The notes under the pieces were generated by a model, which made no database searches, was not told where the DNA came from, and worked only from the letters and a program-made list of their open reading frames with translations. The position numbers and the translations under genes are program-made. Of a stretch of 64,000 nucleotides of DNA, positions 8,788 through 53,482 are shown piece after piece. Positions within the stretch are counted from its first letter, which is position 1. Every line of letters starts with the position of its first letter. This stretch comes from Rhizomicrobium sp. Lineage in GTDB: Bacteria > Pseudomonadota > Alphaproteobacteria > Micropepsales > Micropepsaceae. The stretch spans positions 1,960,756-2,024,755 of the forward strand of contig JBBCGJ010000001.1 in NCBI GenBank assembly GCA_037200985.1, read 5' to 3'.

Positions 8788-8826
8788 TCCGCGATCCCCT
8801 GCGCCGGCGGCGAAGGGGATCGCGGA
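8788..8826 (-). terminator. Perfect 13-bp inverted repeat just after the TonB receptor gene
   Basis: TCCGCGATCCCCT at 8788-8800 is the exact reverse complement of 8814-8826, with a 13-base GC-rich loop. It begins 8 bases beyond the receptor stop codon on the minus strand, the position expected of a transcript end or an RNA-stabilising hairpin. No T-run follows, so it may be a factor-dependent stop or a repeat of REP type. Confidence 0.55.
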
Positions 8827-8834
8827 GATGACAA

Positions 8835-11800
8835 TCAGAACGAACCGCGGAAGCCGATCAGGAACAGCGTGCCCGGGTTGTAGGAGTAGTTCAGCAGGTT
8901 GGGGAACTGCTTGTACGAGCGCCCGATCTTCGCGCGGGTGAGGTTCTGGATGTCGAAGGTGAACTCCGGATCGCTGGGCAGATCGCCGAAGACGTTCGCC
9001 AAGCGGAAGCTGGAGGAGAAGTCCAGCTGGCCGTAAGGCAGCGAATGCTCCTCCGTGAACGCGGAAAGGCTGCTGATCAGGCCGTACACGCTGGAGTTCG
9101 TGAGCGCCCCGCTCTGGTAGTTGTACGAGCCTCTCAACATCAGGCCGTCATGTTCGTAATAGGCCGTGACGTTGTAAGTCGTCGGCGAAACGCCGAGCAC
9201 GACCGCCGGCGCCGCGCCGGACGACCTGGTCCGGACGAAAGTGCCGTTCGCCTGGAAGCCGAAGCCCGGAAAGCCGACCGGCTCGAGCAGGAAGTCGAGC
9301 GGCTGCACCCAGGTGAGTTCGACGCCGTTGATGGTCTCCAGACCCGTCGCGTTCCGCGCCTGAACGATATTGACGGTGGCGACGTTGGGACCGCCGGCCG
9401 CCGTGATCGCCTGCTGCTGCGTGGTCGACAACGTGTCGTAGGTGATGCCGAACTGGGCGAGATAGCTGAACGGCTGCTGCGTCGTGAAGTTGTTCTGGAA
9501 GCCGCTCATCATCTTGCGGAACACGCCGACGCCGATATAGCCCTCGCCGCCGGTATAGAGTTCGGCGCCGAAATCGATGTTGGTCGAGTAGTAGGGCCTT
9601 AGGTTCGGGTTGCCCAGGTTCCAAGTCGCCGCGTCCGAACCGCCGCCGGAGAGCTGCGGCAGCATGCTGGCCGGATTGGCCCTGGTCAGGGTACGCGATG
9701 CCGCCGCCCTTACCTGGAAATCCTCGGCGATTTCCCAGACGATGTTCGCGGACGGCAGGAAGGCCGAATACGAACCCTTGAGAGTCGCCGCCGTGATGGT
9801 GTTGGGATACCGCGCACCGTCGGGAGCGGCGATGCCCGAACGCGTCGTGCCGGTCGCGCAGCCCGCCGGCGTGAGCGCGATGTAAGGCGCCACGCCGCAG
9901 GTGATCGTCCACAGGTTGCGCGGATCCGCGACCGAGGTATAGCCGGTAAGCGTTTGATCGGTCGTGATGTAGCGGCCGCCGAAATTGTATCGGATATTCT
10001 GGCTGCCGCGGTGCAGGGTTCCGGAGAACTCGATATAGGTGCCGACCGTCGACTCGTCGATGACGCCCGAGCTGATGTTGGTGTTGGTGCCGATGCTGAA
10101 ATTGGTGCGGCCGGGATCCTGCAGATTCGTCGCCGCGCCCGGAGACGGCATGGTGGCGAACGCGTTGTAGTTCGTCACCTTCTTCAGCAAGGCGTAGTTG
10201 GCCGCGACGAACCCGTTGGGACCGGCCATCAGATATTGCGGAATGGCCGAATTCGGGATCGTGGGCGCGCCCAGGGTCGGGAACGGCAGGCCCTGGGTAT
10301 ATCCAAAGCCGTTCAGATCCGTCATGCCCCAGCCGGGAAAGGCCGGAAGCGTCGGCGCCGAGACGCTGCAGCCCGGCGATGTGTTGGGCGTGGGCACATA
10401 GGTGCTCTCATTCGGGCCGCAATTGACTTCCTTGAAGTAGTTGCCGTTGTCGTAGCCGCGGATCAGGCGATAGGCATCGTCATAGGCCGCGCCGACGGCG
10501 ACCTTGAACGCGTCGCCGCCATACTCGACGTCGGCGTGCGCGCCCTGGGTGTGCTGGTAGCGCCGCTCCTGCTGCAAGCGCAGATCGCCCTGGTTCCAGG
10601 TGAAGTTCGCCGGGTTCTGGAGGCCGCCGGAATTCGGCAGGCCGTCCATCGAGAACGTCGGCGACGAGCCGGTGTTGTCGTAATTGACGATGCCGTTCGG
10701 CGTACCGAACAGGAAGGAGGGAGAGTCGCGGAAAAAGTGCGCGCGGCTGTAGTTCAGCTGCGCCTTGACCCTCAGCAGATCCGAAACCTGCCATTCCATC
10801 CCGGGATTGACGCTGAAATAGTCGGATTTTTCCTTGTACGGACGCGCTTCCAGCGCCATGGCCGCGTTCGCGAAATTGCCTTTCACGACCACGTTGTTCG
10901 TATCGACCTGCTCGTTCATGGGAATGCTGTTGCCGTTGCGCGCAACCCAGAACATATCTTCGCGATCGAGGTTGTTGTCGATCACGCCCAGGATGCCGTC
11001 GAAGTAGAAGTGCAGGTCGTCCGTGGGACGGTATTCCAAGGAGAGGATGCCGTTGTACCGGCTGCGGTCGCCGCGTTCGAACATCGGCCGGCCGGTGCGG
11101 GGGACCAAGCCGTTGCTGATCTGGTTCATCGTCAGGCCCGGGTTCAGCGCCAGCAGGCGGTCGCCGGTGATCGTCTGTCCGACATAGGCCGCGGGCACGC
11201 CGGTGTTCGGGAATGTGGCCGGCAGGCTCCAATCCGTGGCGCCGCCCAAGGTGTTGCAGCTGTTTCCATTGTTGACGCCGGGAATCGCGGCGCAGGTCGG
11301 GGCGGGAACCGCCGCCAGCTGCGCGGCGGTGAAGTACTGCGTGGCGTTCAGGTTCGGCGTCGTCAGATTGTTGAAGGCGCCTTCATAGCCCGTCGTCATG
11401 GGATGGTTGACCTGGCCGGACAGGCCGAGCAGCACGCCGAACGCTCCGTCGGTGTAGCTGCCGATCACCGTTCCGCGATAGCCGGGATCGCCGCTCTTCG
11501 AGTAATCGGTTCCCTGGACGTTGTAGGAAAGATGCGTACCGGGATTGTCGAACGGGCGCAGGCTTCGCATCTCGATCGTGCCGGAAGCGCCGCCTTCGAG
11601 CATGCTCGCGGTCGAGGTCTTGGAGACCGTCAATTGCGAGAACAATTCGATCGGAAAGATGTTGAGATCGACTTCGCGGTTGGCGCCGCTCTGGTCCGTG
11701 CCGCCGGTCGAAGCCGTCGAGACGACGGCTCCGTTCAGCGTGATCTTGACGAAGTTCGTGTCGAGGCCGCGCAGCGCGATGCGCAGGCCCTCGCCGTCGT

Positions 11801-12095
11801 TCTCGCGCTGGATGGTGACGCCCGGGATGCGATTGAACGCCTCGGCGATGTTGGTGTCCGGGAACTTTCCGATGTCCTCGGCGAACAGCGTGTCCGTGAA
11901 ATTGGTCGAAGCGCGCTTGGCGTCGGTCGATGCCGCCAAGCTCGCGCGGTAGCCCGTCACGACGACGGTTTCGACGGCGTCGTCGGCATGGGCCGGCGCT
12001 GTCGCGACGAACGCCGCGCCGATGCCGGCCAGCAATGTCGTGCCCCTCAGCACGGTCCTCGCACGATTGTTCAAGATGCGAAAATGCGCACGCAT
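8835..12095 (-). CDS. TonB-dependent receptor, Xanthomonas/Caulobacter large type, probably for xylo-oligosaccharides
   Basis: The 1086-residue outer-membrane receptor has a signal peptide ending TAPAHA, a TonB-box-like stretch (ETVVVTGYR), a plug domain (about residues 60-170, with DTNIAEAFNRIPGV typical of the TonB-Xanth-Caul subfamily) and a long C-terminal beta-barrel ending in Phe (FLIGFRGSF). The start has a strong GGGGAGG site 5 bases upstream. It lies between the xylan hydrolases and the xylose operon, and its upstream region carries two LacI-type operator-like sites. Uptake of (glucurono)xylo-oligosaccharides is therefore the likely job; the substrate is inferred from context. Confidence 0.93.
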   Translation of the reverse strand: MRAHFRILNNRARTVLRGTTLLAGIGAAFVATAPAHADDAVETVVVTGYRASLAASTDAKRASTNFTDTLFAEDIGKFPDTNIAEAFNRIPGVTIQRENDGEGLRIALRGLDTNFVKITLNGAVVSTASTGGTDQSGANREVDLNIFPIELFSQLTVSKTSTASMLEGGASGTIEMRSLRPFDNPGTHLSYNVQGTDYSKSGDPGYRGTVIGSYTDGAFGVLLGLSGQVNHPMTTGYEGAFNNLTTPNLNATQYFTAAQLAAVPAPTCAAIPGVNNGNSCNTLGGATDWSLPATFPNTGVPAAYVGQTITGDRLLALNPGLTMNQISNGLVPRTGRPMFERGDRSRYNGILSLEYRPTDDLHFYFDGILGVIDNNLDREDMFWVARNGNSIPMNEQVDTNNVVVKGNFANAAMALEARPYKEKSDYFSVNPGMEWQVSDLLRVKAQLNYSRAHFFRDSPSFLFGTPNGIVNYDNTGSSPTFSMDGLPNSGGLQNPANFTWNQGDLRLQQERRYQHTQGAHADVEYGGDAFKVAVGAAYDDAYRLIRGYDNGNYFKEVNCGPNESTYVPTPNTSPGCSVSAPTLPAFPGWGMTDLNGFGYTQGLPFPTLGAPTIPNSAIPQYLMAGPNGFVAANYALLKKVTNYNAFATMPSPGAATNLQDPGRTNFSIGTNTNISSGVIDESTVGTYIEFSGTLHRGSQNIRYNFGGRYITTDQTLTGYTSVADPRNLWTITCGVAPYIALTPAGCATGTTRSGIAAPDGARYPNTITAATLKGSYSAFLPSANIVWEIAEDFQVRAAASRTLTRANPASMLPQLSGGGSDAATWNLGNPNLRPYYSTNIDFGAELYTGGEGYIGVGVFRKMMSGFQNNFTTQQPFSYLAQFGITYDTLSTTQQQAITAAGGPNVATVNIVQARNATGLETINGVELTWVQPLDFLLEPVGFPGFGFQANGTFVRTRSSGAAPAVVLGVSPTTYNVTAYYEHDGLMLRGSYNYQSGALTNSSVYGLISSLSAFTEEHSLPYGQLDFSSSFRLANVFGDLPSDPEFTFDIQNLTRAKIGRSYKQFPNLLNYSYNPGTLFLIGFRGSF

Positions 12096-28851: not shown

Positions 28852-29015
28852 GAAATATTTCCGCGCAATAAAATATCGTTTGCCGCGACGCGCCCGAAAA
28901 CTTGTCCCCGCCGCAATCGCGGAATCTCCGCGCCTCCCGCGGCTCCGCGCGAGGCCGGTGTCGGATAAGTCCGTCTACGGATTTATTTCGGCGCACGCCT
29001 TGAACCGAGTCGGTC
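28852..29015 (-). repeat. Dispersed intergenic repeat, copy A
   Basis: Read on the minus strand, this about 164-base stretch aligns along its whole length with 53309-53482. Identical blocks include 17 bases beginning GACCGACTCGG, TTATCCGACA, GCGGAGATT and ACGATATTTT, in the same order and similar spacing. It fills most of the 359-base gap between the convergent amn and adenine deaminase genes; the rest of that gap shows nothing I recognise. It has no open frame of note. Confidence 0.8.
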
Positions 29016-29156
29016 CAAACGCCATCTGTCCCAAATCACGACCATTGCATCCAGGCCGCAGATGCGGCGGCATAGCGCGGCCGCCTATCCATGCACAAAG
29101 CCGAGGCGCGTCAACCGATTAGCTGACGTCCGCCGGATTCGAACCGCCTTTTCGGA

Positions 29157-31797: not shown

Positions 31798-31798
<1 letters not shown>
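31493..31798 (+). CDS. ureB: Urease beta subunit
   Basis: The 101-residue beta subunit begins [18 protein letters not shown] and contains [13 protein letters not shown] and [14 protein letters not shown], diagnostic of UreB. It starts 8 bases after ureA and its stop shares one base with the ureC ATG. Longer frames through this region are not used, because this ATG gives the exact family N-terminus. Confidence 0.97.
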
Positions 31799-33528
<1,730 letters not shown>

Positions 33529-44876: not shown

Positions 44877-45842
44877 ATGGAAGACTTCGCAAAGACCTGG
44901 GTGGATCTGGCGCAGCCGCGGCTGGGCGCCGAGGTCGTGTTCGCGACCGACGAATTCTTCGCCGCCAAGGAGCGGCTGATCGATCCCGCCGAGCCGGTGT
45001 TCATCCCGGGCAAGTACGATGCGAACGGCAAGTGGATGGACGGCTGGGAAAGCCGCCGCCGCCGCGATACCGGCCACGATGCCTGTATCGTACGGCTGGG
45101 CAGGCCCGGCGTCGTGCGCGGCATCGAGATCGACACGCGGAATTTCACCGGCAATTACCCGCCGGTGGCGTCCATCGAGTGGTGTCGCTCGGCCGAACGC
45201 ATCCCATCGGGCGCGTGGGCAAACCTGGTGGCGGCGGTGCCGCTTAAGGGCAATGACCGCCTCTTCCTTCCCACTGCCGGTGCCGAGGTCGCGACCCATG
45301 TGCGGCTGAACATCTTTCCCGATGGCGGCGTGGCGCGGCTGCGCGTCTATGGCCAGGTCGTGCGCGACTGGACGGCGGGCGAGCGAGCCGATCTTGCGGC
45401 GATGGAGAACGGCGCGCTGCCGGTGGCGGCGAATGACGAGCATTTCGGCAAAGTCTCCAACCTGCTGGCGCCGGGCAAGGCGCGCGACATGGGCGACGGC
45501 TGGGAGACGCGGCGGCGGCGCGAGCCGGGGCATGACTGGTCCATCGTGAAGCTGGCGCGACCGGGTCGGATCGAGGAGATCGTCGTCGACACCGCGCATT
45601 TCAAGGGAAACTTTCCCGACCGCTGTTTCATCCAGGCCATCGGACCGAGTTCGCTTCCGAAAGAGTCGCTGATCGCGCAGTCGATATATTGGCCGATCCT
45701 GCTGCCCGAGCAGAAGCTGTCCGCCGACCGCGAGCATAGATTTTCGGCCGAGATCGCGAGCCATGAGCCGGTGCAGTTCGTACGCCTCAACATTGTCCCG
45801 GATGGTGGGGTGGCGCGGCTCCGCATGTGGGGAACGGTCTAA
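44877..45842 (+). CDS. alc: Allantoicase
   Basis: The 321-residue enzyme consists of two jelly-roll repeats: GKWMDGWESRRRRDTGHDACIVRLG and NLLAPGKARDMGDGWETRRRREPGHDWSIVKLA are the matching halves, each followed by a D-T-x-x-F-x-G-N segment and a final PDGGVARLR. It hydrolyses allantoate to ureidoglycolate and urea. AllA (ureidoglycolate lyase) and urease in the window complete the route. It is the last gene of the puuE operon, convergent with deoA. Confidence 0.95.
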   Translation: MEDFAKTWVDLAQPRLGAEVVFATDEFFAAKERLIDPAEPVFIPGKYDANGKWMDGWESRRRRDTGHDACIVRLGRPGVVRGIEIDTRNFTGNYPPVASIEWCRSAERIPSGAWANLVAAVPLKGNDRLFLPTAGAEVATHVRLNIFPDGGVARLRVYGQVVRDWTAGERADLAAMENGALPVAANDEHFGKVSNLLAPGKARDMGDGWETRRRREPGHDWSIVKLARPGRIEEIVVDTAHFKGNFPDRCFIQAIGPSSLPKESLIAQSIYWPILLPEQKLSADREHRFSAEIASHEPVQFVRLNIVPDGGVARLRMWGTV

Positions 45843-45862
45843 CGGGCCGCAAAAGAAATATG

Positions 45863-45907
45863 CACGCGGAGCCGCGGAGATTCGATTTACCTCCGCGGCT
45901 CCGCGTG
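45863..45907. terminator. Perfect 17-bp hairpin between convergent alc and deoA; relative of the dispersed repeat (copy C)
   Basis: CACGCGGAGCCGCGGAG at 45863-45879 is the exact reverse complement of 45891-45907, with an 11-base loop. It lies centrally in the 108-base convergent gap, so it can end transcripts from both sides. The left arm and loop resemble the central part of the repeats at 28852 and 53309 (CACGCGG-GCCGCGG ... GGAGATT). Confidence 0.7.
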
Positions 45908-45950
45908 AAATTTGTCTTGCGCTTCGCGCGACGGTCGGAGCCCGCTCCCT

Positions 45951-47267
45951 TTATATCCGCGCCACCACGACAGGTCTTGCCGCGGGTTCGGGGTCGTCGA
46001 TGTGGACGATGCGGCCGAGGACCGCAACCGCCGAATTCGCGGAGGCTTCGTCGGCGGCATGGACCAGCGCCAGGGTATCGCCCTTGGAGACTTTCGCACC
46101 AGCCTGAACGAATTGGGAGAAGCCGACGGCGAGGTCGATCTTATCGGACGTTCTGCGGCGGCCGCCGCCGAGGTCGATGAGTTCGATGCCGATCTGGCGC
46201 GTGTTCATGGGCTGGACGTAGCCCGTCCGCCTCGCGACCACGGACTTTACGACCGGAGCTTTCGGCAAATAAATGTCGGACCTCTCGACGAAATCGGCGG
46301 GACCGCCGAGAGCCGCAACCATGCGGGCGAACACCTCGACGGCGCGGCCAGAGTCGAGCGCCTGCTGCGCCTCGTCCCGGCCTTCTTCGAGATTGGGCAC
46401 GAGCCTGCCGAGCAGCAGCATCTCCGCCGCCAGCACGATGGTGACTTCGTGCAGCCGCGCGTCGCGCGTGCCCTTGCCGGTGAGATAGTCGATGGCCTCG
46501 ATCATCTCCAGCGCGTGGCCGGCGGTTGTTCCGAGGACAGAGTCCATGTCGGTGATGAGCGCGGCGATCGGAAGGCCGGCGCCCTGCCCGATCGAGACGA
46601 GCGCCTCGGCGAGCGCCCGGGCCTGTGCCGGTTCGGCCATGAATGCCCCGGAGCCCGTCTTGACATCCATCGCGAGGCCTTCGAGCCCGGCGGCCAGTTT
46701 CTTGGACAGGATCGAGGCGGAGATCAGCGGGATGGATTCGACTGTCGCGGTCACGTCGCGCACCGCGTAGAGCCGACGGTCGGCGGGGGCGAGATCGGCG
46801 GTCTGGCCGATGATCGCGCAGCCGATCTCGCGCGTCACGCGCTGAAAGGTCTCGATGTCGGGATCGCAAGCGTAGCCGGGGATGGCCCCCATCTTGTCGA
46901 GCGTGCCGCCGGTGTGGCCGAGGCCGCGGCCGGAGATCATCGGCACCACGCCGCCGCACGCCGCGACGATGGGCGCCAGCATGATCGAAACCTTGTCGCC
47001 GACGCCGCCGGTGGAATGCTTGTCGAGCACCGGGCCGCCCAGCGCGTGATCGTCCCAGGAAAGGACGCGACCCGAATGCGTCATCGCGCGGGTGAAGGCG
47101 ACGCGCTCCGCCCCGGTCATGCCCTGGAAATAGACCGCCATGGCGAAGGCGGAGACTTGGGCCTCCGAGAATCCGCCATCGGCGATGCCTTTCACCGCGA
47201 AGGCGATCTCGTCGTCGTTCAGCGCGAGCCCGTCGCGCTTCTTGCGGATGATCTCCTGCGGCAGCAC
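45951..47267 (-). CDS. deoA: Thymidine phosphorylase
   Basis: The 438-residue enzyme has the class II pyrimidine-nucleoside phosphorylase signature: KHSTGGVGDKVSIMLAPIVAACGG, MISGRGLGHTGGTLDKM, DVKTGSGAFM. It cleaves thymidine and deoxyuridine with phosphate to base and deoxyribose-1-phosphate, which DeoB and DeoC degrade. It is last in a minus-strand operon upp-deoC-ALDH-cdd-deoA and begins 7 bases after cdd. Confidence 0.95.
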   Translation of the reverse strand: MLPQEIIRKKRDGLALNDDEIAFAVKGIADGGFSEAQVSAFAMAVYFQGMTGAERVAFTRAMTHSGRVLSWDDHALGGPVLDKHSTGGVGDKVSIMLAPIVAACGGVVPMISGRGLGHTGGTLDKMGAIPGYACDPDIETFQRVTREIGCAIIGQTADLAPADRRLYAVRDVTATVESIPLISASILSKKLAAGLEGLAMDVKTGSGAFMAEPAQARALAEALVSIGQGAGLPIAALITDMDSVLGTTAGHALEMIEAIDYLTGKGTRDARLHEVTIVLAAEMLLLGRLVPNLEEGRDEAQQALDSGRAVEVFARMVAALGGPADFVERSDIYLPKAPVVKSVVARRTGYVQPMNTRQIGIELIDLGGGRRRTSDKIDLAVGFSQFVQAGAKVSKGDTLALVHAADEASANSAVAVLGRIVHIDDPEPAARPVVVARI

Positions 47268-53206: not shown

Positions 53207-53308
53207 CTTCCGGCCAGGCAAGCGCAGACGGCGGCGGAAACGCGGGGCTCGCCACGCGGTGAATTCCTTTCGGATGCAATTGTCGGGATATGAGGGATTT
53301 GGTGCGTA

Positions 53309-53482
53309 GACCGACTCGGTTCAAGAGGCGGGCGGAAATTTTTTACGCGGCGGTGTGGCAGGCGGTTATCCGACAGAGGATTCACGCGGGGCCGCGGATG
53401 ACGCGGAGATTTTCAATTTGCTGCGAGGATAAGTTTTTTCGTTGCGATGCGGCGGACGATATTTTGTTGCCGGGAAATTTTC
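53309..53482 (+). repeat. Dispersed intergenic repeat, copy B
   Basis: This 174-base stretch aligns end to end with the reverse complement of 28852-29015; it shares an identical 17-base block (GACCGACTCGGTTCAAG) at one end and ACGATATTTT near the other. A-rich and T-rich tracts alternate with a GC-rich core containing CACGCGGGGCCGCGG. It lies in the 343-base gap between the convergent aminotransferase and xanthine phosphoribosyltransferase genes. No gene is evident in the rest of that gap. Confidence 0.8.

Follow-up and report, generated by a model that had tools for sequence, protein, structure and literature searches.

The hairpin between the convergent genes alc and deoA of a Rhizomicrobium genome is a copy of a dispersed repeat, probably an untagged REP-like family

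A hairpin that stands between the 3′ ends of two convergent genes raises the question of whether it is a terminator belonging to those genes or one copy of a sequence that is spread over the genome. We examined such a case between alc and deoA (Table 1) in a window of 64,000 nucleotides of Rhizomicrobium sp. (contig JBBCGJ010000001.1, positions 1,960,756 to 2,024,755), which is part of a single-contig genome of 4,640,907 bp referred to here as G000. The hairpin is a perfect inverted repeat with a 17-bp stem and an 11-nt loop (45863–45907), and the inverted-repeat list of the window holds no longer perfect pair of arms. That the stem is exact over 17 bp had been proposed in a preliminary description and was confirmed; it is longer than anything obtained when the whole window was shuffled 60 times at the dinucleotide level, where perfect inverted repeats (loop of 3–30 nt) extended to 14 bp and never to 15. 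The same description placed the hairpin symmetrically between the two genes, which is wrong, because it starts 20 bp past the alc stop codon and ends 43 bp before that of deoA. Folding of positions 45840–45935 gives −50.6 kcal/mol (z = −5.28), and for the two strands of the 108-nt gap folded by itself z is −5.44 and −5.15. A search of Rfam at gathering thresholds assigned neither the hairpin nor the two longer repeats of the window, described below as family B, to any family. Elsewhere in the window, the minus strand matches the Rfam family 5_ureB_sRNA at 31962–32239 (RF02514, 75 bits), antisense to a 576-aa open reading frame at 31798–33528, and there may be only coding conservation behind this match.

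Table 1. Features of the alc–deoA junction and of the two other long convergent gaps, in window coordinates
Feature	Position	Strand	Description
alc, allantoicase, convergent neighbour	44877..45842	+	TIGR02961, E = 1.9e-126
Stretch from alc stop to last shared deoA codon	45843..45953		111 bp in G000, 5 bp in G044, the nearest relative found (G044 alignment and ORF ends)
Hairpin, left arm	45863..45879	+	Two octad units CACGCGGAG-C-CGCGGAG; exact 17-nt inverted repeat
Hairpin, loop	45880..45890		11 nt; with 45879 contains GATTC, a GANTC site
Hairpin, right arm	45891..45907	-	Inverse of left arm; 100% complementary over 17 nt
Companion mini-hairpin	45919..45929		GCGC-TTC-GCGC; read from sequence
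deoA, thymidine phosphorylase, convergent neighbour	45951..47267	-	TIGR02643, E = 1.1e-192
Family B element (~200 bp), AMP nucleosidase / adenosine deaminase gap	28854..29052	+	Family A half-unit near 28926-28951, minus strand
Family B element, third convergent gap	53272..53481	-	Family A half-unit near 53383-53408

The sequence of the hairpin recurs across the genome. A search of G000 with positions 45850–45920 returned 81 matches at E ≤ 10, many of which are the two arms of one place; 40 places were examined with their flanks, and two more were added later. They form a dispersed palindromic repeat, family A, made of 8-bp units (CGCGGAG plus a linker) set as an inverted pair. In alignment the repeat reads TTCACGCGGAG-C-CGCGGAG-AA-CGCGGAG, then a short spacer and then the inverse. 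Each half-site has one to three octads (CACGCGGAG-n-CGCGGAG-nn-CGCGGAG), and the alc–deoA copy has two units per arm (parsed as L2 C / R2 C). Half-units, counted with at most one mismatch, fall into 32 clusters in the examined stretches of G000 and 53 in those of G044; these counts include the half-units within family B elements and exclude the weak places L145, L148, L151 and L159 and fragments that hold only the right end of B, and since L249 and L261 overlap (one G044 site listed twice), the 53 clusters are 52 places. Clusters with both orientations (15 of the 32 in G000 and 40 of the 53 in G044) are always ordered +− and never −+, and the remainder are single or tandem halves. Spacers range from 0 to about 190 bp and some contain other repeats (L165 and L171); at 2419964–2420166 and 3287948–3288152 the halves stand about 150–190 bp apart, with other palindromic sequence between them. 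A single plus half-unit (G000 C1:1185190) is separated by about 7.5 kb from a single minus half-unit (1192659), and their order is the one that a split A element would show (L149, L150 and L311). Another inverted repeat of the window, which is not a member of family A, is terminator-like: it is 19 nt long (8788–8826; 95% complementary, 1-nt gap) and lies just beyond the end of a minus-strand gene at 8835–12053.

The two arms of a copy tend to agree. Among 61 copies from G000 and G044, with the doubled G044 site counted once, most are imperfect palindromes: whole arms are identical in only 11, compared with 4.1 when arms are dealt randomly (3 of 20,000 shuffles as high); the linker letters of both arms agree in 16, compared with a shuffled mean of 6.1 (none of 20,000 shuffles reached 16), and unit number agrees in 43, compared with 37.6 (570 of 20,000). 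G000 and G044 share copies, so the copies in these statistics are not independent, and in G044 alone the agreement is lower (linkers, 10 versus 5.6, 174 of 20,000 shuffles; unit number, 30 versus 29.2). Between orthologous copies, one octad is different in both arms at 1015189, and the linkers carry matching changes at 2440187. Either selection on pairing or correction of the palindrome during replication would produce such agreement. A GCGC mini-hairpin occurs within 45 bp of an end in 36 of the 61 copies compared with 27 of 953 A-free intergenic blocks of 45 bp, a comparison in which each copy offers two flanks and each block is single.

Copies were also sought in other genomes. A covariance model (E ≤ 1, both strands counted) gave 68 matches in G000, 112 in G044 and 12 in G062. 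The exact half-unit is present in 23 of 60 genomes of the genus, at 1 to 192 sites each (192 in G050), with none for a reversed-pattern control, and a longer query of 72 nt found matches in 10 of 41 relatives, all within the genus. When the octad pattern was relaxed to accept CACAGAG and CACGGAG as well, 15 of the 385 genomes searched in the class had matches, other families included, and the control had none in any genome; the number of sites went up to 27, and facing pairs were seen again. The octad repeats in those other families (L293–L302) are either A-rich (CACAGAG) or G-rich (CGCGGAG), G146 having both, and the two forms suggest a wide, patchy repeat superfamily. A search of open-access paper texts for exact octad strings returned no match to those strings.

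By comparison with published systems, family A is best read as an untagged REP-like family; the observation that drew attention to this locus was true and its explanation is ordinary. GTAG/CGTC REPs are short intergenic palindromes found mostly in convergent or co-directional gaps, near stop codons, and the CGTC families of alphaproteobacteria are described in that text as having no dedicated transposase (PMC3733652). Family A, with tens of copies in G000, is likewise a short, dispersed, intergenic palindrome that is placed in convergent or co-directional and rarely in divergent gaps and is uneven between species, but it lacks a GTAG or CGTC tag: its arms are tandem octads with ends of the form ...CACGCGG / CCGCGTG... 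and GATT/AATC-like flanks (61 copies, judged by eye). CGTC-like REPs occur beside it in G000 as separate families. REPINs, which are tied to RAYT transposases (PMC3116915), share with family A the inverted pair of half-sites that forms a hairpin, and single halves look like remnants; unlike them, family A has no RAYT beside it in G000. The PF01797 (Y1_Tnp) transposase is absent from G000 and shows no association with family A across the 60 genomes of the genus (A in 8 of 18 positive versus 15 of 42 negative genomes; Fisher P = 0.57), which rules out a RAYT as the mobiliser of family A in G000. The nearest published parallel found is Br-REP1 of Bradyrhizobium. Br-REP1 and Br-REP2 are dispersed palindromes of about 200 copies with the consensus CCGGAATCTCGAGATTCCGG, and RNA data show Br-REP1 where the 3′ UTRs of convergent genes overlap (PMC5082802). 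Like family A, they are alphaproteobacterial dispersed palindromes with companion palindromes and a copy number that is very uneven between related species; however, the consensus given there does not resemble the octad arms. The CIRs of Caulobacter and Brucella, which are alphaproteobacterial intergenic inverted repeats with GANTC methylation sites (PMC2229807), are called to mind by the GANTC that many A copies carry at an end. They are about 110 bp long with two arms, whereas GANTC is found at the left end of 31 and the right end of 27 of the 61 A copies (at both ends in 13; background 0.9% per 9-bp window), and in the alc–deoA copy at the loop.

By our own gene caller the window has five convergent pairs, two of which overlap by 4 bp and three of which are separated by gaps of 359, 108 and 343 bp. 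The preliminary description had stated that every convergent gap of more than 100 bases has related sequence and that the other pairs overlap without any, and this was right: family A or B is present in all three gaps. The two longer repeats belong to family B (about 200 bp), which is different from family A and carries one A half-unit in mid-element; the link that had been drawn between the three gaps therefore holds, but what they share is a half-unit, the elements themselves being different. The further claim that the left arm and loop match the core of the longer repeats was borne out over a short length: alignment to the longer copies, which might have revealed no similarity, yielded a real match of 16–19 nt (89–94% identity of the alc–deoA arm to 53380–53398 and 28922–28952). 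Ten full copies of family B were aligned, besides which there are a few right-end fragments, and they have in common a conserved right end CTTGAACCGAGTCGGTCYA, a TTATCC...GGATAA pair and AAAATATCGTTCGCCGC, all strongly conserved. All ten lie between 1.09 and 3.09 Mb (1092976–3091885) of the 4.64-Mb contig. A conserved RNA in family B was considered and rejected: RNAalifold gave a covariation term of +0.66 for the ten elements, and both sides change in only 2 of 21 pairs, a covariation so weak that it provides no evidence for such an RNA. Both B elements of the window are common to G044 at the same gaps, with a conserved interior and much unalignable flanking spacer, and the copy at 53272–53481 has one internal module exchanged between the two genomes.

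The placement of family A is biased towards the 3′ ends of genes. With genes called by our own codon-usage caller, which was trained on five NCBIfam-verified genes and is not a curated annotation, the 32 clusters of G000 lie in 14 convergent, 16 co-directional and 2 divergent gaps, compared with 18, 66 and 35, respectively, of the 119 unoccupied gaps of at least 60 bp in the same stretches. The clusters of G044 lie in 17 convergent, 33 co-directional and 2 divergent gaps, with 1 within a called gene, compared with 20, 114 and 62 of 196 unoccupied gaps of at least 60 bp. Convergent gaps are thus enriched in A (14/32 versus 18/119, P = 0.0011 in G000; 17/52 versus 20/196, P = 0.00025 in G044) and divergent gaps are depleted (2/32 versus 35/119, P = 0.005; 2/52 versus 62/196, P = 1 × 10−5; Fisher tests, which omit the G044 cluster inside a called gene). 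We also surveyed eight stretches of G000 that were not chosen for A in G000, six of them placed by synteny to G044 A sites. No motif of family A, family B or the CGTC type occurs in any of the 13 convergent gaps shorter than 60 bp; one does occur in 9 of the 11 convergent gaps of at least 60 bp and, among gaps of 60–600 bp, in 11 of 43 between co-directional and 5 of 21 between divergent genes. A length-matched coding control contained such a motif in 401 of 2,000 samples, a value that is not low because the CGTC-type motif has only six letters. This survey supports the proposal that the three long convergent gaps have a sequence family in common which the tight pairs lack. A repeat explains which convergent pairs of G000 are wide and which overlap, in that the long gaps sampled nearly always hold a dispersed repeat and the short ones never do.

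The history of the alc–deoA copy can be approached through relatives. Among the 60 genomes searched, alc adjoins deoA only in G000, G044 and G006. In G044, where alc is 88% and deoA 90% identical, the two reading frames overlap by 4 bp, an arrangement also seen in the window's two tight convergent pairs, and in G006 they are 1 bp apart; from the alignment and the reading-frame ends, deoA ends two codons earlier in G000 than in G044. The sister species keeps alc and deoA overlapping with nothing between them, which makes the hairpin a genomic repeat of an ordinary kind that is intrinsic to neither gene. On the simplest reading of these alignments, about 106 bp would have entered in the G000 lineage and made the gap, with the borders of the repeat approximate. 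A deletion in both G044 and G006 is possible but needs two events, and the apparent direction of change (gain in G000 and not loss in G044) is drawn from two relatives only. The A copy between alc and deoA and the two B copies of the window are different elements and differ in history, the B copies being common to G044 and the A copy not. Neither this empty site nor six sites occupied only in G044 have a clean target duplication; inverted ends are present.

Family A is dispersed, its unit is an inverted pair, its copies take 3′ positions genome-wide and the alc–deoA junction is empty in two relatives. We think it likely that the hairpin is a copy of this untagged REP-like palindrome that inserted here, is tolerated at the 3′ ends of the two genes and would form a stem-loop in their transcripts. 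As a non-autonomous REP-like insertion, an A copy would have entered the G000 lineage between alc and deoA while these overlapped by 4 bp, moving the deoA stop codon by two codons and making the 108-bp gap. Such repeats may persist where they are least harmful, downstream of stop codons. The transcribed stem would place a 3′ stem-loop on each convergent mRNA, where it could block 3′–5′ exonucleases and slow transcription running on into the facing gene. The hairpin would probably act as a terminal stem-loop of both the alc and the deoA transcripts; the element would be tolerated and not required, and is possibly useful. The fixed +− order of the half-sites, the variable spacers with other repeats inside some of them, presence/absence polymorphism and the patchy spread over families would also fit a MITE-like spread of family A, which we regard as rather unlikely given that no target duplication was seen and that the arms vary in unit number, which is unusual for terminal repeats.

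Copies of family A turn over between the two genomes. Twelve A places were aligned as shared by the flanks of both genomes, one of them a mere remnant in G000, and flanks indicate two more (L309/L285 and L310/L283); with at least 14 places common to G044, many copies are old. The G044 stretches were mostly picked for holding A, so the numbers of shared and unshared copies are biased and are not rates. G044 also lacks the G000 copy at 1872360, where it has an insertion whose gene, judged by eye, resembles a transposase, and the copy at 2103605 is at a rearranged end. Near G044 C2:1058130–1059335 (L248), the site of a G000 A copy is taken by about 1.2 kb of inserted DNA that contains a transposase-like reading frame and begins inside a TGTCATGGCCCGCG-type palindrome. 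Conversely, comparison of flanks identified six G044 copies without A in G000, and in five of these six gaps G000 has another palindrome or half: CGTC-type palindromes (L303 and L308), a half (L307), a CCTCCCCC-type (L304) and a CCCTCTCTC-type (L160) palindrome. Three of these sequences begin CGTCAT/TGTCAT, as CGTC-type REPs do.

These differences between the genomes, together with the co-variation of arms within copies, could mean that stems are selected at 3′ ends whatever their sequence and that unrelated palindromes replace one another in a stabiliser or RNA-processing role. We hold this to be unlikely: the G000 sequences of the six gaps fold with z = −9.0, −6.7, −4.5, −1.6, −1.3 and −1.1, so that only three surpass shuffles with |z| above 4, G044 has nothing at the alc–deoA junction, the same pattern would follow from a permissive landing zone, and palindrome correction during replication explains the agreement of arms. 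A wider scheme, in which transposase-independent octad-armed palindromes, patchy over alphaproteobacterial families, fill the convergent 3′ slot, with A, B and CGTC-type families competing and swapping between sister species, the stem being kept and not the sequence and the arms being rewritten together, seems quite improbable. That the hairpin is a dedicated bidirectional intrinsic terminator of alc and deoA, conserved for that role, is very doubtful: a very stable stem does follow the alc stop codon closely, the minus strand (the deoA direction) continues with CATATTTCTT and was flagged as terminator-like, and A copies favour convergent gaps, but the plus strand was not flagged, at least six T in 12 nt occur in only 10 of the 122 flanks of the 61 copies, so that a stem followed by a U-tract does not characterize family A as a class, the same sequence stands at many unrelated places, and the hairpin is absent from both G044 and G006, which leaves the suggestion of a conserved terminator belonging to the two genes unsupported.

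The genomes G000 and G044, between which the coordinates of shared, gained and swapped copies are known, form a ready system for studying the spread of palindromes without a known transposase, and are also suited to asking whether such palindromes alter mRNA 3′ ends. The CGTC/TGTC-AT...ATCCA palindromes (CGTC-type REPs; L303, L308 and 2419964–2420166) are a second repeat that occupies gaps like those of family A and are also found nested between A halves.
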